This document shows, piece after piece, positions 25,849 to 36,275 of a stretch of DNA of 64,000 bases. Source of the DNA: Planctomycetota bacterium (GTDB lineage: Bacteria > Planctomycetota > Phycisphaerae > WQYP01). The notes below the pieces were generated by a model. The model was given only the letters and a program-made list of their open reading frames with translations, was not told the origin of the DNA and searched no databases. Both the position numbers and the translations under genes were made by a program. The stretch is from contig JAJZDN010000005.1 in NCBI GenBank assembly GCA_021805985.1, positions 1 through 64,000 on the forward strand. Direction: 5' to 3'. How positions within the stretch are numbered: position 1 is the stretch's first letter; each line of letters opens with the position of its first letter.

Positions 25849-26031
25849 GATTAGAAAAACCTTCCAAAAAATAGAAGCCATCATACTTCCGGGCGGTAGC
25901 TTAAAATACCAAGCCGGACTTAACAAGTCCTGTAAAGAATAACCGATTCGCGCCTGGCATTAAAGCTGTTGCCAAGCCCCTTGTTCAGAGGCGTTCGCCC
26001 CATGTGTTGGCTTGAGCAAGCTGGAGCGGGA

Positions 26032-27378
26032 TTACAACGGTGCGGCGATGATGGCATCTAGATCGGCAAGACGGGTGTCCAGATCGGCTCGCAAATTTAC
26101 GACGGTTTGCTGGATTGAAAGCAACTCATCTTGTGCTCTAATCTGGCGGTCTATACCGCCGTTACCCTGCTGAAAATTAGCGCGAGCCAGAGAGACTATG
26201 ATCTTCAGGCGCGGCAGGATGGTATTTTGAAAAATGTTGATCTGGCGACCATCATTGTGCATTGCAATGAGATCCACGAGCAGTTGCGCTGCCAGAGAAA
26301 CGTGGGTGCTGCGCCAGGCGGCCTGCGTGGCTCGGAGCTGATCGCCGGCCTGTGCGATCGCAGCGTTGATAGCCTTATAACGCAACACAGGAATAATAAG
26401 GGCGCCGGAAAAACTCTGCGCTGTGCCATCCAGACTGCTGGAAAGGCCGATATCAAAATTGGGAATGTATTGCTGCTTAGCTCGGCGGATGTCAAAACGG
26501 TTCGCGGAGGCATCACGTGCCAGACCGCGTAATTGTGGATTGCGCTGGGCGGCCAAGAGCCAGAGCTGTTGCGCGTTCAAATGCGGCGCCGATAGAACCG
26601 CAATGGCTCGCGGCGGAGAGAGCGGCTGCGCCGGAGGACGTCCAAGAACGGCATTGAGCTTCGCCAAGTCACGGGGCAGTTGATGTTGAAGGTTGATGAT
26701 TTGCGCATCCATTTCATCCACAGCATTCTGGCCCGCCAGCCACTGACCGGCACGCTTGCTGCCGAGGCTAATGCCAGAGCGGCTTAGTGCGGCGCTAGTG
26801 GCCAGAAGCTGCCGCTGGCGTTCATTCAGGCGCAGCACCGCGGCGGTTCTGGCATAGCGATACCAAGCAGCCAGCACAGCACGGCGCACCGCAAAGATCG
26901 CCGTCCGATACTGCCAGCCCGCAGCACGCGCTGATTCCAGGGCCGCCCGAGCTTGTGTCGTAAGTTTAGAAGGCCAGCGCATATCGCTGCTGGTCATATT
27001 GCCGGCACCCAGAATTGTATTGGCCAGCGATGCCTGGCCATTTTGCAGACTCGTACCGGCATTGAGCATCAAGGTCGTGGCCTGGGTACCAGCTTGGGAA
27101 ATCTGTTCAATGGCAGCGCGCCACTTCCAATAAGCCTTTTCCACGTCCGGATTGTTCAGTATCGCGTAGCGGACCAACTGCGGGGATCTGGCGTTCAGCG
27201 GCAGCGGAGGAATATGGCGCTGGGCGTAGGGTTTCTCGTAGGGTTTACCTGCTTTGACTGCCGCCCGGCGCAAAGCATTTTCACCTTTCGGCGTAACAGT
27301 ACAACCGGTCAATAATACGGCGGCTCCCAGCATCAGTACAAACCCGAGCTTTGACCGTAATGGGCGGTTTGATTTCAT
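26032..27378 (-). CDS. cusC: Outer-membrane factor of the Cus-type efflux system (448 aa)
   Basis: TolC-family outer-membrane lipoprotein (signal VLLTGCTVTP) with two helical outer-membrane-efflux repeats rich in Ala, Gln and Leu. It is the third gene of the cusB-cusA-cusC order and its ATG overlaps the cusA stop by 4 bases. It would form the exit duct for metal captured by CusB and pumped by CusA. Symbol assigned by operon position, since TolC-family channels are hard to tell apart by sequence. Confidence 0.78.
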   Translation of the reverse strand: MKSNRPLRSKLGFVLMLGAAVLLTGCTVTPKGENALRRAAVKAGKPYEKPYAQRHIPPLPLNARSPQLVRYAILNNPDVEKAYWKWRAAIEQISQAGTQATTLMLNAGTSLQNGQASLANTILGAGNMTSSDMRWPSKLTTQARAALESARAAGWQYRTAIFAVRRAVLAAWYRYARTAAVLRLNERQRQLLATSAALSRSGISLGSKRAGQWLAGQNAVDEMDAQIINLQHQLPRDLAKLNAVLGRPPAQPLSPPRAIAVLSAPHLNAQQLWLLAAQRNPQLRGLARDASANRFDIRRAKQQYIPNFDIGLSSSLDGTAQSFSGALIIPVLRYKAINAAIAQAGDQLRATQAAWRSTHVSLAAQLLVDLIAMHNDGRQINIFQNTILPRLKIIVSLARANFQQGNGGIDRQIRAQDELLSIQQTVVNLRADLDTRLADLDAIIAAPL

Positions 27379-30300
27379 GCGGCATCTCCTTCGTCAGGGG
27401 TATGGCTGCCGACCTTGGGCTGTTGGCTGGCAAAATGCCCCCGCAGGTTCCATGCCATCACGATGTAATACAGCGCGGGCAGCACCAGGAGTTCCAGAAC
27501 AAATGCGCTGCCTAACCCGCCAATCATGGGTGCAGCCAGCCGTCGCATGACCGTAGCCCCGGCACCATGCACCCACAACAGCGGTGTAAGACCGATCAGG
27601 GCGGCACATACGGTCATAGTCTGGGGCCGAATGCGGCGAACCGCGCCGGTGTGCACCGCATTAAAAAGATCACGCTTGTTGCGCAATAGTCCAGAAGCTT
27701 TCGCCTGCGCAAAACTGACATCCAGATAAAGCAACAGCACCAGACCCATTTCCGCACAAAGCCCGGACAATGCAATAATACCGACCCACACCGCTACGGA
27801 CATTTGGTAATGCAGGAAATACAAAGCCCAGATGGCCCCCACCAGGCCGAAGGGCACTGACAACAGCACGCCCAGCACCCGGCCTACACTTCCGGTGGCT
27901 ACAAACAGCAGAATAAATATTGTCAGCAGTACCATCGGCACGGCGAGTTTCAACCGGGCGTTGGCCTGCTGAATCTGTTTATATAGGCCGATCCACTGAT
28001 ACGTATAACCCGCCGGCAGCGTTACGTGCGAACGAATTGCCGCGTTGGCCCCGCGCACATAACCCACCGTGTTACTGCCCGTGGTGGTGATGTTGATATA
28101 ATTGACGGTCATAGCGTTCTGCGTATCAATTTCCGGCGGACCTGAACTGTAATGGATATCAGCCAGCATACCCAGCGTCATAAATGTGCCATTCGGGGCG
28201 GCGATGGGCAATTGTTTAAGCTCGGAAATACTGCCGCGAAGATTGCGGAAATAGCGGACATTGATGGGCAGGCGCTGCAGTCCCCGCACCATCGTACTAA
28301 TTGGCTCACCGCCGATGGCCAAGGTAATAATGCGTTGTACTGCCGCTTGCGTAAGACCATATCGGGCGGCAACCAAGCGATGGACATGAATATCCAAGTA
28401 GTACCCGCCTAGGGTCTGATTGGCAATGGCACTGCCGGTGCCGTGAACATGTTGCAGCGTTTGCGTAATGGAGTTTGACACTTTCCCCAGCACGCCCAGG
28501 TCCGAACCGAACACGCGGATTCCCAGCAGCGTTTTGCTGCCGGTGTTGGCCATGTTGACTCGATTGGCAATGGGCATGGTCCAATAGGCGGCGAATCCCG
28601 GTACCTTCAGCGCCTGATTCATCCCTTCATGATACTTACCGGCGGGATCCGCCCAGCCATGCATAACCTGGCTTAGCGTCACCGGCGCCCGGTTGGGCCA
28701 AAATGTATGCTTGCACGGCCATTGCAACCAATGCGGCCAGGAATGATAGAAGCGGGGAATATCTATTTCCGGCCAACGTGCGCGGCGCTTCAGGCGGACA
28801 ATCGTATCAATCATATTCAGCGGTGCAGAATCGGTGGCGGTATCCGCGCGGCCGATCTGGCCCCAAACACTTTTGACTTCCGGAAAACTTTTGATGATTT
28901 TGTCACTCTGTTGTAACACCATTTTGGCAGCCCCGACACCGATGCCGGGATAGGTTGTGGGCATATATTCCAGGTCGCCTTCATATAGCGGTGGGGTAAA
29001 TTCGGTCCCCAACCGGCCAAACGGCCAGATCACCGACACGCACAAAACAACGGCGACGAGGATCAGCGGCCACCGCAAAAACATGGCTGCCCGAAAAATG
29101 GGATCAAAAATGTTCTGCAGCAACGTGGCGATAAAATTGTGTTCCTCATGAATGATTTTTTGCGGCAATACCAGCAACGCCGCAAGGATCATCCACCCGC
29201 CGCAAATCCACCAGCGGTAACGTGCCAGCAAGCCGCCATCGTGGCCCATGGCCCAATACAACCCGATTGCCGGGCCGAAAATAATCACCGCGGCCAGCGG
29301 CAACCAGATCCACCATGCCCAGGTTTTGGGGAAGAATCGGGGCGTAATGAAATAGATCATCAGTACCGGCACAAGGGTAATCGACAGCAGCGACGCCGAG
29401 GCAATGGCAAAGGTTTTTGTCATAGCCAACGGGCTGAACATCTTGCCGCTTTCGCCGGGCAGGACAAAAATCGGCAGAAAGCTGACCGTAATAATCAGCA
29501 GGCTAAAAAACAGACTGGGACCGACTTCCGACGCGGCGGTCAGAATCAGCTCTGTACGAGGCGTGGGCGGATGGCCGGCCTGCACGCGAATCTCATCGCG
29601 GTTGAGATGCTGATGGGCATTTTCAACCATCACAATGGCCGAATCCACCACCACACCGATAGCAATGGCGATGCCGCTTAAACTCATAATATTGGCACTG
29701 ATCTTAAGCCAGTACAAAATCGCCAGACTGATCATCATGCTGGATGGAATGACTGTAATGGCCACCAGGGCACTGCGGCCATGCAGTAGAAATAAAAGGC
29801 AGATCAAGGCCACGACAATCATTTCCTCGGTCAGCGTATCGGACAGTGTATTGATGGACCGGTTGATCAGATTGACACGATCATAGCCGGTTTTGAACAT
29901 CACGCCGGGAGGTAAACTGGCGGCCAGAGCGGCGATCTTCTTTTTGACCGCTGTGACGACACGGAATGTATCGGCTCCGTAACGGACCACCACAATGCCC
30001 CCGACCGTTTCCCCCTGGCCATTCCAATCCAGAATTCCCTGGCGTTGCGCACCGGCTTTCTGGATCGTTGCCACATCGCTTAGCAGAACGGGTGTGCCGT
30101 CGGTGGCCCGCCCCACCGGCACGGATCGCAACTGCGCAAGATTCTTGAGGTATCCGCGGCTGCGGACAATATATTCAAATTCACTGCGATCAATGACTGC
30201 TCCGCCGACCTCATTATTAGATTGTTGCACATCGCGGATGACCTGATTAACGCCCAGATGGTAGGCCACCAACTGGTTGGGATTCAATACGATCTGGTAC

Positions 30301-31019
30301 TCCGTGGTAAAGCCGCCGAGTCCGGCAACTTCTGAAACCCCGGGCACCGCTTCCAACTGATAACGCACGAACCAATCCTGCAATGAGCGCAGTTTCCCCA
30401 GATTCATATCGCTGGAAAGCAGCGGCTGATGCGACAAAGGCGATGTGCCAGGCTTGTCAAACGCACGGACCCGCACCAGACGGGCTCGCACTGCAGCCGG
30501 TGCCGCACTGCGATGCGCGTACCATGTGTTCGCGGAGAGATCATGCCAAATTCCACCTGGATGATTCTTGCAATACCACCCCGGAAACAAAATATATTGA
30601 TAAGCCCAGCCGGCGCCGGTGGCGTCCGGGCCAAGCTGCGGATTCACGCCCGCGGGCAGCAGCGCTTTGGCGTAGCTAAGATATTCCAGAACGCGGCTGC
30701 GCGCCCAGTACAAATTCGTGCCATTTTTGAACACGACTGTAATCAGGGAATATTCAAACATACTCTGACCGCGCACGGCTTTCACGTCCGGCACATGGAT
30801 TAACTGCGTTTCCAGCGGATAGGTTACCTGCTTTTCCACCACGCCGGGCGATTGGCCGGGATAGTTTGTCAGCACCAGCACCTGCACATCGGACAGATCT
30901 GGCACGGCGTCAAGCTTACTGTGAAACGCCGCCCACGTGGCCACCGCCATAGCCATGGCGAAAAGCAGCAGCACCAGCACGCGGTTCTTAATGGATAGTT
31001 CGATTATTTTTCGGATCAT
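27375..31019 (-). CDS. cusA: CusA/CzcA-family heavy-metal RND pump (1214 aa)
   Basis: Proton-driven heavy-metal exporter. Motifs: N-terminal DAVPDLSDVQV, TM4 GVVVDSAIVMVENAH, and Met-containing segments EGDLEYMPTTYPG, APLNMIDT and RVNMANTG, which line up with the three methionines of the CusA metal relay as I recall it. These favour Cu(I)/Ag(I). The protein is about 160 residues longer than E. coli CusA. One insert occupies roughly residues 145-208, between WAYQYIL and LRSLQDW; further extra sequence follows TM6 and precedes YWTMPI. It is flanked by cusB 26 bases upstream and cusC overlapping downstream. Confidence 0.88.
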   Translation of the reverse strand: MIRKIIELSIKNRVLVLLLFAMAMAVATWAAFHSKLDAVPDLSDVQVLVLTNYPGQSPGVVEKQVTYPLETQLIHVPDVKAVRGQSMFEYSLITVVFKNGTNLYWARSRVLEYLSYAKALLPAGVNPQLGPDATGAGWAYQYILFPGWYCKNHPGGIWHDLSANTWYAHRSAAPAAVRARLVRVRAFDKPGTSPLSHQPLLSSDMNLGKLRSLQDWFVRYQLEAVPGVSEVAGLGGFTTEYQIVLNPNQLVAYHLGVNQVIRDVQQSNNEVGGAVIDRSEFEYIVRSRGYLKNLAQLRSVPVGRATDGTPVLLSDVATIQKAGAQRQGILDWNGQGETVGGIVVVRYGADTFRVVTAVKKKIAALAASLPPGVMFKTGYDRVNLINRSINTLSDTLTEEMIVVALICLLFLLHGRSALVAITVIPSSMMISLAILYWLKISANIMSLSGIAIAIGVVVDSAIVMVENAHQHLNRDEIRVQAGHPPTPRTELILTAASEVGPSLFFSLLIITVSFLPIFVLPGESGKMFSPLAMTKTFAIASASLLSITLVPVLMIYFITPRFFPKTWAWWIWLPLAAVIIFGPAIGLYWAMGHDGGLLARYRWWICGGWMILAALLVLPQKIIHEEHNFIATLLQNIFDPIFRAAMFLRWPLILVAVVLCVSVIWPFGRLGTEFTPPLYEGDLEYMPTTYPGIGVGAAKMVLQQSDKIIKSFPEVKSVWGQIGRADTATDSAPLNMIDTIVRLKRRARWPEIDIPRFYHSWPHWLQWPCKHTFWPNRAPVTLSQVMHGWADPAGKYHEGMNQALKVPGFAAYWTMPIANRVNMANTGSKTLLGIRVFGSDLGVLGKVSNSITQTLQHVHGTGSAIANQTLGGYYLDIHVHRLVAARYGLTQAAVQRIITLAIGGEPISTMVRGLQRLPINVRYFRNLRGSISELKQLPIAAPNGTFMTLGMLADIHYSSGPPEIDTQNAMTVNYINITTTGSNTVGYVRGANAAIRSHVTLPAGYTYQWIGLYKQIQQANARLKLAVPMVLLTIFILLFVATGSVGRVLGVLLSVPFGLVGAIWALYFLHYQMSVAVWVGIIALSGLCAEMGLVLLLYLDVSFAQAKASGLLRNKRDLFNAVHTGAVRRIRPQTMTVCAALIGLTPLLWVHGAGATVMRRLAAPMIGGLGSAFVLELLVLPALYYIVMAWNLRGHFASQQPKVGSHTPDEGDAA

Positions 31020-31045
31020 GGATGGGTCCAGTCTCTTTTATTAGG

Positions 31046-32524
31046 CTAGTGCTTTTTCGCCGGCATTTTCATTCCCTTGGGCATGGCGGCAGGTTTTATC
31101 GCACGGCCAGATGGACCGCCAGGCGAATTTTTCTGCGCGTCCGATGGTGCCGGCATAGCATTCTTGGGCGAGGGCGCGTTCGCAATTGTTGGCATCTTGG
31201 GCATAAAACGGGATTTAATTTCATTGAGTTGCGATTCGACATCAATCATGAATTGCCCGCTGGTGACTACTTTTTGCCCCGGCCCCACGCCAGAAAGAAC
31301 TTGCAGAACATGCCTCATACCTATGCCGCCGGACAGCCCCGTGCGCACCGCCACCGGGTCGAAGTGACCATGAGATATCTCCACAAACGTGACTTCACCG
31401 GTACCGGAGTTAATGACCGCTCGCCGTGGTATCAGGATCGCGTGTTTGAACGGCGTCGTATGTATATCGGCCAAGGCATACATTCCCGGCCGTAATTCTT
31501 TTCGGGTGTTGGGCAGTTCAATGCGAACGGATGTAGTGTGATTCTGCGGGTTCTCAAACGCATCAATAAAAATAATTTTTCCATCAAACGTATGACCTGG
31601 GAATGCGGCGATCCGGGCCGCGACGTGCTGCCCCGCGCGAATCCATGGCAACTGATTTTCATACACATATGCATCAAGCCATAGGGTGGAGAGTGTGTCA
31701 ATGCGCATGGCGGTTGTGCCTGCGGTGATCTGTGATTTCTGATGAACCTTGATATCCGTGAGAACCCCGTCCGTCGGGCTGTAGAACGTTATATATTCCA
31801 CGGGCTTTAACGTGCGTTCAATTTTTTTTATCTGCGGCCAACCGACCGCCAGATAATACAACCGCAATTCCACGGACCGCACCAGTTCACGCGTGTCGCG
31901 AACGGCAGAGCTGTCCGCGATTTTCCGCGCTGCCAACAGCGATTTTTGGGCCGCGATCAATTCCTCTTCCGCCGCCAAAATCGCCGGGCTGTAAAGCGTG
32001 AAGAGTTTAGCCCCTTTTTTCACACTTGTGCCGTTGGTCGTGGCAAACAACTTGCCAATCCAGCCGCTGGCGCGAATGGTGATGCTGTAGCGGCCTAGTG
32101 CAGGCGTACGCAAGTAACCCACCACGCGCACGGGATGAATCAGCGGCCCGAGCGTAACCAGCCCGGTCTGAATACCCATGTTTTGAACCATGGCGGGATC
32201 GACCCGTACCTCTCCGGCAGTGGTAGTGCGGGACTGCGTGGCATAAACAGGAATAAGCGCCATGCCCATGGAGCTGATGCCCGGTTTGGGAGAAATTGAT
32301 GATGGCCCCACCATCGGGTCCCAGTAATAGAGAATTTTTCGCTTGGGCGCATCCTTAACCGCCATTGCGTTTTCCGGCGATACCGAGGGCGCCCCGGAAG
32401 TAGATCGTATGCCAGCCGATCCTGCGGACTTGTTCGCGGACCCCGATGCCAACATGAGTCCGGCCACCAATCCGGCGACTGCCGCCACGATGACCAGCCC
32501 TGAAATAAAGATGATGCGTCTCAT
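31046..32524 (-). CDS. cusB: Cus-type periplasmic adaptor protein (492 aa)
   Basis: Membrane fusion protein of the copper/silver efflux complex. After an N-terminal anchor (IIFISGLVIVAAVAGLVAGL) comes YYWDPMVGPSS and GISSMGMALIPVY. This corresponds to the heavy-metal-binding module of CusB in its cysteine-free, Met-bearing form. Beta-barrel and lipoyl segments and a helical hairpin (LAAEEELIAAQKSLLAARK) follow. The tail is Met/His/Lys-rich (MPKGMKMPAKKH) and could bind metal. First gene of the operon; ribosome binding site AGGA. It diverges from the ECF sigma gene. Confidence 0.87.
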   Translation of the reverse strand: MRRIIFISGLVIVAAVAGLVAGLMLASGSANKSAGSAGIRSTSGAPSVSPENAMAVKDAPKRKILYYWDPMVGPSSISPKPGISSMGMALIPVYATQSRTTTAGEVRVDPAMVQNMGIQTGLVTLGPLIHPVRVVGYLRTPALGRYSITIRASGWIGKLFATTNGTSVKKGAKLFTLYSPAILAAEEELIAAQKSLLAARKIADSSAVRDTRELVRSVELRLYYLAVGWPQIKKIERTLKPVEYITFYSPTDGVLTDIKVHQKSQITAGTTAMRIDTLSTLWLDAYVYENQLPWIRAGQHVAARIAAFPGHTFDGKIIFIDAFENPQNHTTSVRIELPNTRKELRPGMYALADIHTTPFKHAILIPRRAVINSGTGEVTFVEISHGHFDPVAVRTGLSGGIGMRHVLQVLSGVGPGQKVVTSGQFMIDVESQLNEIKSRFMPKMPTIANAPSPKNAMPAPSDAQKNSPGGPSGRAIKPAAMPKGMKMPAKKH

Positions 32525-33034
32525 AAAATTTTATCCTGACAACCCTTAAGCCTGCCTCAACGGCTCTTCCGTTGACAGACAACATAACAGGGGACTCGCC
32601 TGCCGCCAGCCCAAACCCGGGCCAATAGGGCGCAAACGTCGTCAACGTTACGTCGCTGCACAATCAACGCGAACGGGGCGTCAAAAAGTTCCCAGAAGCG
32701 AATCATGGATGTATACAACATAAAGTCACCTCAGACTAAAGGTTCTTCCCGGACGTACGTCAGCCAACCCCTGGTCGGCGTTGCCGGGGATTCACCATAG
32801 CTAACGCGGGTGCGGCGGTAGAAGTTCCAGCGGGGTATTAAGGAAGAGATTCTGTATAAGTCTGTTCATTATATTCTTTACGTTGTGCGGAAAAGTTCAG
32901 ATGGCCTTTACATGGCCGATCGCAGGCCGATCGCCGAATATTGGGAATATGAGACATGCTGGTATAATCCCGCACAAGCTGCGCTGGTGCGCCGCTGTCG
33001 GCAGCTTGCAGAATATTTGGAAGAAATTGCCGCC
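32525..33034. other. Divergent regulatory region between cusB and the sigma factor
   Basis: No credible gene. On the minus strand GGAAC followed by TTTTTGACG (GGAAC at 32688-32692) resembles an ECF -35 element for cusBAC, about 165 bases before the cusB start, though no -10 can be fixed. On the plus strand a housekeeping promoter lies at 32941-32968. Open frames in the region have no ribosome binding site. Confidence 0.45.
32941..32968 (+). promoter_or_regulatory. Extended -10 promoter for the ECF sigma operon
   Basis: TTGGGA, a 16-base spacer ending in TGG, and a perfect TATAAT. The TG dinucleotide before the -10 box makes it an extended -10 promoter. Transcription would begin near 32975, which rules out the two earlier in-frame start codons of the sigma gene and supports a start at 33035. 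Confidence 0.65.
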
Positions 33035-33697
33035 ATGATCGTATGGATTGCCTTCGACGCAGCACCTTCACCGCCAGGAGCAGCTTTGAATTCGAATACG
33101 GACCAGGACACCCTGGCGAAAAGCCTGACGGAAAGTGAACTGGCGGAAAAATTCCATCAACTGATCTGGCCCGAACGGGCCAATATCCTCCGATTTGCCT
33201 TGTTTCTTACGCACCGTACGACCGACGCGGAAGATCTGACACAGGAGACGCTGCTGAAAGCCTGGCGGGCGCTGGACCGCTTCCAGACGCAGAATCAGAA
33301 CACCAAAGCCTGGCTTCTGACCATTTTGCGAAACTGCTGGACGGATTCCTTCAGACGCACGCGCCATGAGCACAATCATGTGGCCTTGGAAACCCTTCCC
33401 CAAGAGCCTCCAGAACCTCAACACGAGGTGCAGCCGGAGGAAGACCAACGGCGCGACGTGGAGGCGATTCTGAATTCATTTTCCGACCAGAGAATTATTG
33501 AGGCCCTGCGGGCGCTGGGGGAGGATTATCGCTGGGCTATTTTGCTGGTGGATGTTTCGTCCTTGAGTTACGAGGAGGCGGCTGCTGCCATGGGAGTGCC
33601 GGTCGGCACGGTTCGCTCCCGGCTGTTCAGGGGCAGGCGGATGGTGCGGGATTTTCTGATCAGCGGGAACTTTTCCCCAGCCAAAGGCGTTCAGTAA
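33035..33697 (+). CDS. ECF RNA polymerase sigma factor (220 aa)
   Basis: Group IV sigma factor. Region 2 reads ILRFALFLTHRTTDAEDLTQETLLKAW with the -10-recognition helix following (TKAWLLTILRNCWTDSFRR). Region 4 reads LSYEEAAAAMGVPVGTVRSRLFRGRR with a helix-turn-helix. A longer acidic linker (EPQHEVQPEEDQRRD) separates them. The start at MIVWIAF was chosen because the promoter's TATAAT lies only about 70 bases upstream, leaving earlier start codons untranscribed. It is followed by a membrane protein of anti-sigma type and diverges from cusBAC. Confidence 0.88.
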   Translation: MIVWIAFDAAPSPPGAALNSNTDQDTLAKSLTESELAEKFHQLIWPERANILRFALFLTHRTTDAEDLTQETLLKAWRALDRFQTQNQNTKAWLLTILRNCWTDSFRRTRHEHNHVALETLPQEPPEPQHEVQPEEDQRRDVEAILNSFSDQRIIEALRALGEDYRWAILLVDVSSLSYEEAAAAMGVPVGTVRSRLFRGRRMVRDFLISGNFSPAKGVQ

Positions 33698-33777
33698 TTG
33701 AACGGAGCTTTACCGTTGTACGCCATGAGTCCGAGAACAGCGTTCGGACAGGCAAAAATGGACAGGAGATGCCGATT

Positions 33778-34446
33778 ATGGATAACGATACGACCCAACA
33801 CGATGAATCCGACGCGGTACAGCAGGCGATCTCCACGCGCGTGGCACGTTTGAATACGCTCCCCGTAGATACCACTCGGCTGAATCAACTGTTGCGCGAT
33901 CAGATTCCCCTGCCTCGCAAACACCGGCCGTTCCTGGTATTCGGCTGGCTGGCCGGCGCCGGGGCAGCGGCTTGCGCAGCACTTATTATTGCCGCAGCGC
34001 TACTGTTTACCGGAACACCGCGACTATCGGCTGCGGAACTCGCGGGCGTGTACCGGAACCTTGCCACGCAGTCCAGCGTCATGCTGCCCGGCGCGCAGGC
34101 CACTACTCCCGTCCGGATGGCACCGGGGATGATGTGCACGATGAAAGCCGGGGAGATGGTCTCCTGTTGCCGGCAGATGGTGGGAAAATATCGTCTGACC
34201 TGTGTAGCGGTGAAATCGCCGTCCCATGCCCGCGTGGTGATGGTGGCTGGGAACAGTGGCACAGTAAATTGTCCGCAGGGGCAAGCAGTCATCATCGCGG
34301 GCAGGTCATATTCGCTGGTTGTTTCAGGTCATATCAACATGCTCATGCGACGCGTCGGCAAACGCTGGTATTGTGCCATGGGTTCTGAAAAACCCAGTTC
34401 ATTGGCGCAGTATCTGCGGCAGCTTGCGCCGAATACGAGGAAGTAA
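33778..34446 (+). CDS. Putative membrane anti-sigma factor with Met/Cys-rich sensor domain (222 aa)
   Basis: About 50 cytoplasmic residues (including ISTRVARLNTLPVDTTRL) precede one transmembrane helix (LAGAGAAACAALIIAAALLF). A periplasmic domain follows, rich in Met and Cys: GMMCTMKAGEMVSCCRQM, LTCVAV, VNCPQGQ, YCAMG. This layout, directly after an ECF sigma gene, fits an anti-sigma factor whose outer domain senses metal or redox state. The start was set at the second ATG because GGAG lies 9 bases before it and touches the first. I recognise no named anti-sigma family. It ends 2 bases from the convergent DUF71 gene. Confidence 0.7.
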   Translation: MDNDTTQHDESDAVQQAISTRVARLNTLPVDTTRLNQLLRDQIPLPRKHRPFLVFGWLAGAGAAACAALIIAAALLFTGTPRLSAAELAGVYRNLATQSSVMLPGAQATTPVRMAPGMMCTMKAGEMVSCCRQMVGKYRLTCVAVKSPSHARVVMVAGNSGTVNCPQGQAVIIAGRSYSLVVSGHINMLMRRVGKRWYCAMGSEKPSSLAQYLRQLAPNTRK

Positions 34447-34448
34447 AC

Positions 34449-35174
34449 TTACCGGACAGGCGGAATTGCGGCCTCCGTCAAAACGCTCGTGTCTGAGGTA
34501 TGGCCCGGCAACAAATCGGCATAGTATCGGCCATCGCGAATAACCACCTGCCCAAGTTTCACATCCAAGGGCTGGGAAAAAATCGGACCGGCGTAAACAA
34601 AGGTATGGAACTCTCCATTTTCCCCGCAGGGGTCAATGGCGGCGGACAGATCAGAGAGTAATTGATGATCAAAGCTGCGCCCCGCAAACCCCGGCCCAAC
34701 TTTGCCTTCAACACAGGAGAGATAACCCCTGAAACCCAGAGCGATTATCTCCTGAGCCAAAACCGAGGTAGGACGTTTCCAGAGCGGAAATACGGCCTTC
34801 ATACCGACGGTGGCCAGATTTTTCTCCCGCCAGGCCCGCAGATCTTCCAGAAATAAATCACCAAAGCCCACGGTTTCAACGCCCTGGCGTTTATAACGTT
34901 GCATGGCATCACCCATGATCTGTTCATAAACCGCGTTCGTGCATGGACCGGAATTATGAGACGGCAAATAGATTTTATCCAGCGGAATGCCGATCGCCTT
35001 GGCCTGCTGCTCCAGCAGTTCCTCGCGCACGCCATGGTGGCTGATACGCTTGAATTCTTCAGAGACCGTGGTCAGCAACGCCGCCACCTCGTAATCCGCC
35101 CGGCGTGATAGCTCATAAAGCGCCATAGCACAATCTTTTCCCCCGCTCCAAGATAAAACCACCGGTATTTTCAT
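34449..35174 (-). CDS. DUF71-type ATP-pyrophosphatase, diphthine-ammonia ligase-like (241 aa)
   Basis: Member of the adenine-nucleotide alpha-hydrolase superfamily related to Dph6. The PP-loop LSWSGGKDCAMAL lies at the N-terminus, followed by the family motif EELLEQQAKAIGIPL and GFGDLFLEDLRAWRE, then GFRGYLSCVEGKVGPGFAG. Bacteria lack diphthamide, so the substrate here is unknown; an ATP-dependent amidation of some metabolite is likely. Single gene, divergent from thiL. Confidence 0.82.
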   Translation of the reverse strand: MKIPVVLSWSGGKDCAMALYELSRRADYEVAALLTTVSEEFKRISHHGVREELLEQQAKAIGIPLDKIYLPSHNSGPCTNAVYEQIMGDAMQRYKRQGVETVGFGDLFLEDLRAWREKNLATVGMKAVFPLWKRPTSVLAQEIIALGFRGYLSCVEGKVGPGFAGRSFDHQLLSDLSAAIDPCGENGEFHTFVYAGPIFSQPLDVKLGQVVIRDGRYYADLLPGHTSDTSVLTEAAIPPVR

Positions 35175-35339
35175 TCCACCAACTCCGTAAAGTCCGCAGG
35201 TTAGCCGGCAAGAATTTATGCACTTCGCCGCAAGTTTGCCGGAATTATACGCGCAGACGGAGCTAATCAGTGAACTGGCGATCGGACTCCAGCGTGATGC
35301 GATAATGATTTTCGGGGCACCGACGTTATAATTCCGGCC

Positions 35340-36275
35340 ATGAAAGAAAATGACGTACTTGAATGGATCGCCCGTAATGCTAAATCATATCCATGGGTTC
35401 ATATTGGAGTGGGCGATGACATGGCGGCGGTTACTCTGCCGGGTGGAGAATTTTCAAACCTGGCTTTACTGAAAATTGATCAGGCACTGGATCAGGTGCA
35501 TTTTGATTTGCGCTGCCACCGCCCCGCCGCTGCCGGAAAAAAGGCGGTTAATCGGTGCCTGTCGGATTGTGCGGCCATGGCCTGTGTGCCTATGGCGATA
35601 CTTATTTCCGTGGCGCTGCCACAAACGGCGGATACCGCGATGATGCAGGAACTATTTGACGGCTGCCAGGCTGCGGCGGCGGCATTTAATTGCCCGATTG
35701 TCGGCGGCGATACGGCGATATGGGATCAACGCCTGGCGGTCACCGTGGCGGCGCTGGGGGTTACAGCTCACGTGCCGATTCGGCGATCGGGTGCAAAGGT
35801 GGGCGATGCACTGTGTGTCACGGGAAAGCTTGGTGGAAGCATTTTGGGGCGACATCTGGATTTTATTCCACGCATTGATCTGGCCCAGCGGCTGGCCGCG
35901 GCGATGAATATCCACGCCATGATGGATTTATCCGATGGCCTGGCGATGGACTTGCCCCGTATGATGACTGCATCCGGTACTGGGGCGTGCGTTAATACGG
36001 CATGGTTACCCATTCATCCGGACGCACTGCAACTGCACCAGCGTGACGGCAAACCGGCGCTGCATCACGCGCTGTGTGATGGGGAAGATTATGAACTTTT
36101 ATTTGCGGTTGATTCCGATGACGCCCGGCAACTGGCGAATGTTGACCCGGAAATTCCCGTTACCATTATTGGCCGGGTAACGGCGGCCCCAGACGAATGC
36201 GTGCTGACGGATGATCACGGGCAGGCGCAGGCGTGGCCAAAAGGCGGTTGGGAATATACCGGTGGTGGAACATGA
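35340..36275 (+). CDS. thiL: Thiamine-monophosphate kinase (311 aa)
   Basis: Phosphorylates thiamine monophosphate to the diphosphate cofactor. AIR-synthase-like fold with VGDDMAAV (metal-binding aspartates), NRCLSDCAAMACVP, GGDTA, and MDLSDGLAMDLPRM plus CDGEDYELLF near the C-terminus. Length is normal. No Shine-Dalgarno sequence precedes the ATG, while TATAAT ends only 7 bases before it, so the transcript may be leaderless. The stop overlaps the tsaE start in ATGA. Confidence 0.92.
   Translation: MKENDVLEWIARNAKSYPWVHIGVGDDMAAVTLPGGEFSNLALLKIDQALDQVHFDLRCHRPAAAGKKAVNRCLSDCAAMACVPMAILISVALPQTADTAMMQELFDGCQAAAAAFNCPIVGGDTAIWDQRLAVTVAALGVTAHVPIRRSGAKVGDALCVTGKLGGSILGRHLDFIPRIDLAQRLAAAMNIHAMMDLSDGLAMDLPRMMTASGTGACVNTAWLPIHPDALQLHQRDGKPALHHALCDGEDYELLFAVDSDDARQLANVDPEIPVTIIGRVTAAPDECVLTDDHGQAQAWPKGGWEYTGGGT

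Follow-up and report, generated by a model that had tools for sequence, protein, structure and literature searches.

The window analyzed here, 64,000 nt from a Planctomycetota bacterium of the class Phycisphaerae (assembly GCA_021805985.1, contig JAJZDN010000005.1, positions 1 to 64,000; host genome 4.68 Mb in 197 contigs), carries an extracytoplasmic function (ECF) sigma factor gene, the gene of a single-pass membrane protein that is a candidate anti-sigma factor, and the cusB, cusA, and cusC genes of a copper/silver efflux pump of the resistance-nodulation-division (RND) type. The first-pass annotation had located cusB, the ECF gene, and the membrane protein gene within 31046-34446, where all three indeed lie, and had described the latter two as facing cusBAC; the gene coordinates instead put them back to back, with the ECF and membrane protein genes running rightwards from 33086 and the pump genes running leftwards from 32524. 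The genes and predicted features are as follows.

26032..27378, minus strand: cusC, outer-membrane factor (OEP PF02321, 53.8 bits, cut-off 22)
27375..31019, minus strand: cusA, RND pump (TIGR00914, 969.8 bits, cut-off 701; solved CusA, E 1.9e-259)
31046..32524, minus strand: cusB, membrane-fusion protein (HlyD_D23 match; solved CusB, E 1.2e-34)
32666..32693, minus strand: predicted ECF-type promoter of cusBAC, GGGAACTTTT-N14-CGTT (congener alignment; motif searches)
32941..32968, plus strand: predicted housekeeping-type promoter of the ECF gene, TTGGGA-N16-TATAAT (congener conservation; consensus scan)
33086..33697, plus strand: ECF sigma factor, 203 aa, TTG start behind AGGAG (Sigma70_r2, Sigma70_r4_2; start from congener alignment)
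33665..33691, plus strand: predicted ECF-type promoter of the anti-sigma candidate gene, GGGAACTTTT-N13-CGTT, within the 3' end of the ECF gene (motif searches)
33778..34446, plus strand: single-pass membrane anti-sigma candidate, 222 aa (homologs; NCBIfam anti-sigma matches below cut-off in homologs)
33778..33933, plus strand: its inner domain (RL..L..PVDT..L..L), presumed sigma-binding (R24, P32, and V33 kept in 17/17 family members)
34015..34443, plus strand: its outer domain, presumed periplasmic and metal-binding (core C133-C134, C145, N190-M191, W200-x-C202-x-M204-G205)

The pump, the sigma factor, and the membrane protein

The pump belongs to the Cu/Ag type of heavy-metal RND systems (CusCBA). 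The window CusA passes TIGR00914, the CusA/CzcA model, the solved structures closest to it are those of CusA, and the methionines at solved CusA chain positions 580, 630, and 679, which we take to be the Cu/Ag metal site, are all three also methionine in the window protein. The genome has no other CusA match at E <= 1e-100. No RNA families were found in 26000-36000.

The sigma factor shows the ECF composition: Pfam detects region 2 (Sigma70_r2, 62.2 bits, cut-off 24) and region 4 (Sigma70_r4_2, 58.4 bits, cut-off 25.7), and regions 1 and 3 are absent. The 270-aa open reading frame (ORF) from 32885 is over-extended, TTG 33086 being the start common to congeners. The promoter upstream of this TTG has an extended -10 element (TG before the -10), and the GCTGGTATAAT block there is kept in 5 congeners.

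For the membrane protein, the most likely start is ATG 33778, behind the Shine-Dalgarno sequence AGGAG, because three of four close congeners lack an ATG at 33769; residue numbers used here are counted from 33769. The sequence bears out the architecture proposed in the first-pass annotation, a short inner domain, one helix, and an outer domain. A low-confidence model folds residues 1-55 into two short helices around the PVDT loop, after which come basic residues and a hydrophobic helix at about 57-80; this single membrane helix was read from the sequence and is also present in the model. The protein had been described as Met/Cys-rich, with several methionines and seven or so cysteines in the outer domain. 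Seven cysteines in total and several methionines (11 from residue 83 on) are indeed there, but C69 lies within the membrane helix and only six cysteines (123, 133, 134, 145, 168, and 202) are in the outer domain. C123, C168, and most of the methionines are unconserved, and the supposed Met/Cys-rich domain thus shrinks to a smaller core, CC...C...NM...WxCxMG. In a 57-row alignment of 17 own-family and 40 distant sequences, C133 is kept in 17/17 and 38/40 rows, respectively, C202 in 17/17 and 36/40, G205 in 17/17 and 37/40, M191 in 14/17 and 34/40, C134 in 12/17 and 37/40, and C145 in 17/17 and 20/40.

Profile searches of the membrane protein family against solved structures returned chance-level matches only. 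Two Pfam families matched by homologs, MucB_RseB_C (E 0.0005, 1/50 homologs) and DUF3379 (best E 2.6e-5, 5/50 homologs), were not used, their scores falling below the cut-off wherever cut-offs were shown. An alignment of 50 of the 57 rows leaves out near-duplicates (L032, L033, L094, and L095) and sequences with uncertain starts (L105, L110, and L116).

A promoter motif before cusBAC and the anti-sigma candidate gene

Upstream of cusB, the congener alignment shows two conserved blocks, GGGAACTTTTT and CGTTGA, separated by a spacer that varies. A search with GGGAACTTTT alone gave a second site, before the anti-sigma candidate gene, with CGTT at near-equal spacing. The combined pattern GGAACTTTT-N12..15-CGTT has exactly two matches in the 4.68-Mb genome, one upstream of cusB and one upstream of the anti-sigma candidate gene, and one match in the reversed control. 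The cusB site does not count independently, because the pattern was drawn from the window locus and its relatives; the site before the anti-sigma candidate gene and the rarity of the motif elsewhere in the genome are independent evidence.

The same motif recurs in relatives. The 20 own-family loci (269,668 bases) contain 22 matches, against 0 in the reversed control, and every one of the 22 stands at cusB, the anti-sigma gene, or a small accessory gene (at L042 the accessory frame is uncalled, and the site there matches that of L039); 15 of the 20 loci carry at least one. With a stricter pattern, 27 relatives searched genome-wide gave 22 matches, 12 of them at Cus/ECF/anti-sigma loci, against 15 anywhere in the reversed control; the frames downstream of the other 10 share no theme. 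In one genome (G017) the anti-sigma gene lies on a different contig from the ECF-cusBAC genes, and the motif stands at cusB and the anti-sigma gene alike. The motif is absent from the Cus loci of two genomes without ECF and anti-sigma homologs, G010 and G012.

In the distant families, a related pattern, GGAAC-N15..18-CGT[TC], lies near the start of 19/40 ECF genes (reversed control 0; other ORF starts 24/314), which fits autoregulated ECF operons. The window ECF gene has a conserved housekeeping-type promoter, so that feedback there probably acts through the anti-sigma candidate only. Allowing one mismatch in the window genome added 7 further sites (control matches 0 and 4). These were considered as a possible wider regulon. 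Most fall inside long open frames, and one stands 49 nt ahead of an internal start in a frame for an HtrA-like protease; we take them as chance.

Several other genes and sites in relatives were noted. In L038 (6577-6993), L039 (7197-7655), and L041 (8296-8751), the space between the ECF gene and cusB encodes, directly behind the motif, a small exported protein (138-152 aa) that matches no Pfam family and has conserved Cys, Met, and His residues. At L038:7377-8072, a frame for a Peptidase M48-like lipoprotein (Pfam E 1.3e-8) is found next to the ECF/anti-sigma genes, and frames resembling it, judged by eye only, occur at L034:5753-6064 and, between the ECF gene and cusB, in L032. In G024, a site near-identical to the anti-sigma promoter of G004 stops at the contig edge (L173, end of contig C48); the anti-sigma gene, not found in that assembly, may be missing beyond it.

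Linkage and distribution of the pair

A same-strand ECF gene lies at most 500 bp from the membrane protein gene at 12/16 own-family and 41/44 distant loci, and CusA/CusB-like genes are in the same stretch at 12/16 and 29/44, respectively. These linkage counts leave out L035 and L083, where the anti-sigma ORF was seen by tblastn only, and the fragment L140. Gene orders vary (ECF then anti-sigma, divergent from cusBAC; anti-sigma, ECF, then cusBAC; ECF, anti-sigma, then cusB), and the link between ECF, anti-sigma, and pump genes survives the rearrangement. Across 28 genomes of the family, 16 have both the ECF gene (orthologs defined by E <= 1e-38) and the anti-sigma gene, 8 have neither, 2 only the anti-sigma gene, and 2 only the ECF gene; in both anti-sigma-only genomes the gene is at a contig edge, and in one of them (G016) a partial ECF gene adjoins it. 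Fisher's exact p is 0.0005, or 0.003 by genus with G016 entered as having both, values that are only a guide because the genomes are related. In its position next to the ECF gene and in its co-occurrence with that gene, the membrane protein fits the general pattern of an anti-sigma factor.

Homologs point the same way. The NCBIfam anti-sigma factor model NF052375 is matched by 14/50 homologs at E <= 0.01 (best 2.6e-10), and in 12/40 distant homologs the PVDT-type inner domain is replaced by the zinc anti-sigma motif Hx3Cx2C. The window protein itself has no class I zinc anti-sigma (ZAS) Hx3Cx2C motif, with no Cys in residues 1-56. L101, L104, and L106-L113, set against window positions 33778-34446, show one outer domain combined with two different inner domains, of the zinc Hx3Cx2C and the PVDT type. 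To judge from these alignments, the inner anti-sigma domain is swapped under a common sensor-like outer domain. The window membrane protein probably holds the ECF sigma factor in check.

Homologs of the membrane protein occur in 19/61 genomes searched (own genome included), among them all 8 of the genus, and a profile search found the family in 64/397 genomes of the class; the four weakest matches (G243, G383, G294:C56, and G209:C450) were left out of the loci. A phylum sample gave 11/392 genomes, 2 of them outside the class with weak E-values: in G604 an anti-sigma-like protein precedes CusC/B/A-like genes, and in G695 no pump gene is near the anti-sigma-like match in the stretch examined. 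The closest named relatives (82-84% identity) are from Planctomycetota metagenome-assembled genomes, one filed as Phycisphaerales; no relatives were found in the viral contigs or the plasmids searched.

A candidate switch for copper and silver export

We hypothesize that the housekeeping promoter would supply a basal level of ECF sigma factor, which the single-pass membrane protein encoded downstream would hold. A rise of periplasmic Cu(I)/Ag(I) would occupy the Cys/Met core (C133-C134, C145, M191, C202, and M204) and release the sigma factor, which could then use the GGGAACTTTT-N13/14-CGTT promoters before cusBAC, for export, and before the anti-sigma gene, for negative feedback. We infer from sequence that the inner domain binds sigma, that the outer domain is periplasmic, that the metal is the direct signal, and that this sigma factor uses these promoters. 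We regard the scheme as a whole, a membrane-held ECF sigma factor that is released by Cu(I)/Ag(I) and drives cusBAC and the anti-sigma gene, as reasonably likely. Control of Cus export by the pair, as first proposed, is supported computationally by the motif, the linkage, the co-occurrence, and the zinc-type homologs.

Several observations weigh against this scheme. No ECF gene is within 500 bp at 4/16 own-family loci, no CusA/CusB-like gene is in the stretch read at 15/44 distant loci, and the motif is absent from five own-family loci (L036, L037, L040, L044, and L045). C134 is replaced by Tyr in 5/17 own-family members, and C145 is lost in 20/40 distant rows. Neither Pfam nor PHROG has a match for the window membrane protein, NCBIfam has no significant one, and in all three homologs examined the NF052375 match is under the curated cut-off. 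The outer-domain models are also poor: AlphaFold mean predicted local distance difference test (pLDDT) scores are 45.7 for the whole protein and 48.9 for the outer domain, both models having been built from only 8 sequences.

As to the signal, Cu(I)/Ag(I) is likely because the window CusA keeps all three metal-site methionines, and it is favored by pump type and by Met-rich neighbors in relatives; direct sensing of Cu/Ag by the outer domain is plausible, its Cys/Met core being conserved and the pump being of the Cu/Ag type. In two relatives (G014 and G021), the ECF ortholog adjoins a probably exported protein that is extremely rich in Met (MMHHGMMDHMMRGGMM...; L200:194-745 and L201:1256-1762), and in L200 a 589-aa frame follows a copy of the motif at a distance of about 200 nt. 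The Met-rich protein and the 589-aa frame are possibly more copper/silver genes of the same regulon.

The strongest competitor is a redox or disulfide sensor: the pair would still control cusBAC, and the outer-domain cysteines would sense envelope disulfide or thiol damage, of which copper stress is one cause, rather than a metal ion. The best-kept core is dominated by cysteines (C133, C134, and C202) in a presumably oxidizing compartment, and methionines other than M191 are weakly conserved, as this would have it. However, the adjacent CC pairs, the conserved NM, and the WxCxMG motif beside Cu/Ag-type pumps suit soft-metal binding, and M191 itself is kept in most rows of both sets, so that we consider redox sensing rather unlikely. 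Still less probable is that another soft or transition metal is sensed or that the metal differs by lineage, the distant members lying by CzcA-like pumps. The distant-locus pumps are mostly <50% identical to the window CusA, and the metal may therefore differ there, but the CusA encoded in the window is a Cu/Ag-type pump with all three methionines conserved, CusB matches solved CusB best, and Met-rich proteins adjoin the ECF gene in G014 and G021. A chance neighborhood, with the membrane protein unrelated to sigma factor or pump, could be argued from proximity alone were one genome considered, but it is contradicted by linkage conserved in several gene orders, the shared promoter, and the co-occurrence, and we give it almost no weight.

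Returning to the proposed Cu/Ag-released pair, we compared it with described systems. In Caulobacter crescentus, the gene of the ECF sigma factor SigF is followed by that of its membrane negative regulator NrsF, and the system answers chromium and cadmium stress (PMC3511200) and is also copper-induced (PMC8224329); conserved, probably periplasmic cysteines of NrsF are needed for proper control (PMC3511200). The window pair is likewise an ECF gene followed by a candidate membrane negative regulator. However, NrsF, a DUF1109 protein, is predicted to span the membrane six times, and the SigF regulon, as described, comprises sulfur and unknown genes and no Cus pump (PMC3511200), whereas the window protein has one hydrophobic stretch and no DUF1109 match. 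In Acinetobacter, the copper-stimulated ECF sigma factor SigAb is encoded in one operon with membrane anti-sigma proteins, AabA and a second partner, AabB; metal genes are its indirect regulon, and the copper input mechanism is given there as unknown (PMC12153292). The window pair resembles SigAb/AabA-AabB, as described, in joining an ECF sigma factor to a membrane anti-sigma candidate, and differs in its predicted direct cusBAC promoter. In Myxococcus xanthus, CorE (copper) and CorE2 (Cd/Zn) are ECF-based metal responses, and CorE, as described, works without an anti-sigma factor and senses through a Cys-rich extension at its own C terminus (PMC10141476, PMC8999054). The window ECF has no such extension, 18 residues without Cys following the region 4 match.

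CnrY represents a class of short two-helix anti-sigma factors described as lacking a zinc motif (PMC7406223, PMC8103513), a build that the inner domain of the window protein appears to share. CnrYXH of Cupriavidus metallidurans controls an adjoining heavy-metal RND pump through an ECF/anti-sigma pair (pMOL28 annotation), as proposed for the window pair, but it is a Ni/Co system whose sensor CnrX is a separate protein. No CnrX-type sensor gene is found between the ECF gene, the anti-sigma candidate gene, and cusB in the window, and the family shows no similarity to CnrX (hhalign probability 0.1). Against CnrY, hhalign gave a probability of 3.6 over 23 columns with E 0.012 against one sequence, a comparison of low power with so short a domain; CnrH and the window ECF share 27% identity. 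In its proposed mode of action the pair is akin to NrsF/SigF and CnrYXH, yet it falls under the definition of neither; it is a variant of the membrane anti-sigma/ECF kind. In the open literature searched, a coverage that excludes the main ECF reclassification, we found no planctomycete Cus pump under the control of a sigma/anti-sigma pair; the suggestion that the variant is perhaps undescribed holds for that literature, and an earlier computational listing of the pair is possible.

The known regulator of Cus-type copper/silver efflux is the two-component system CusRS. We tentatively propose, at somewhat less than even confidence, that a class-wide Phycisphaerae family of one-pass anti-sigma factors, with two inner-domain types and an outer domain that is itself the Cu(I)/Ag(I) sensor, wires RND export to RNA polymerase in the CusRS role. 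Over a good part of the class, that role appears to fall to a sigma/anti-sigma pair in which a sensor-like domain is fused to the anti-sigma candidate. The analysis defines a predicted promoter, a predicted regulon, and candidate sensor residues for Cus control, suggests a function for a protein family that has no Pfam entry, and offers what may be a compact metal-responsive switch.

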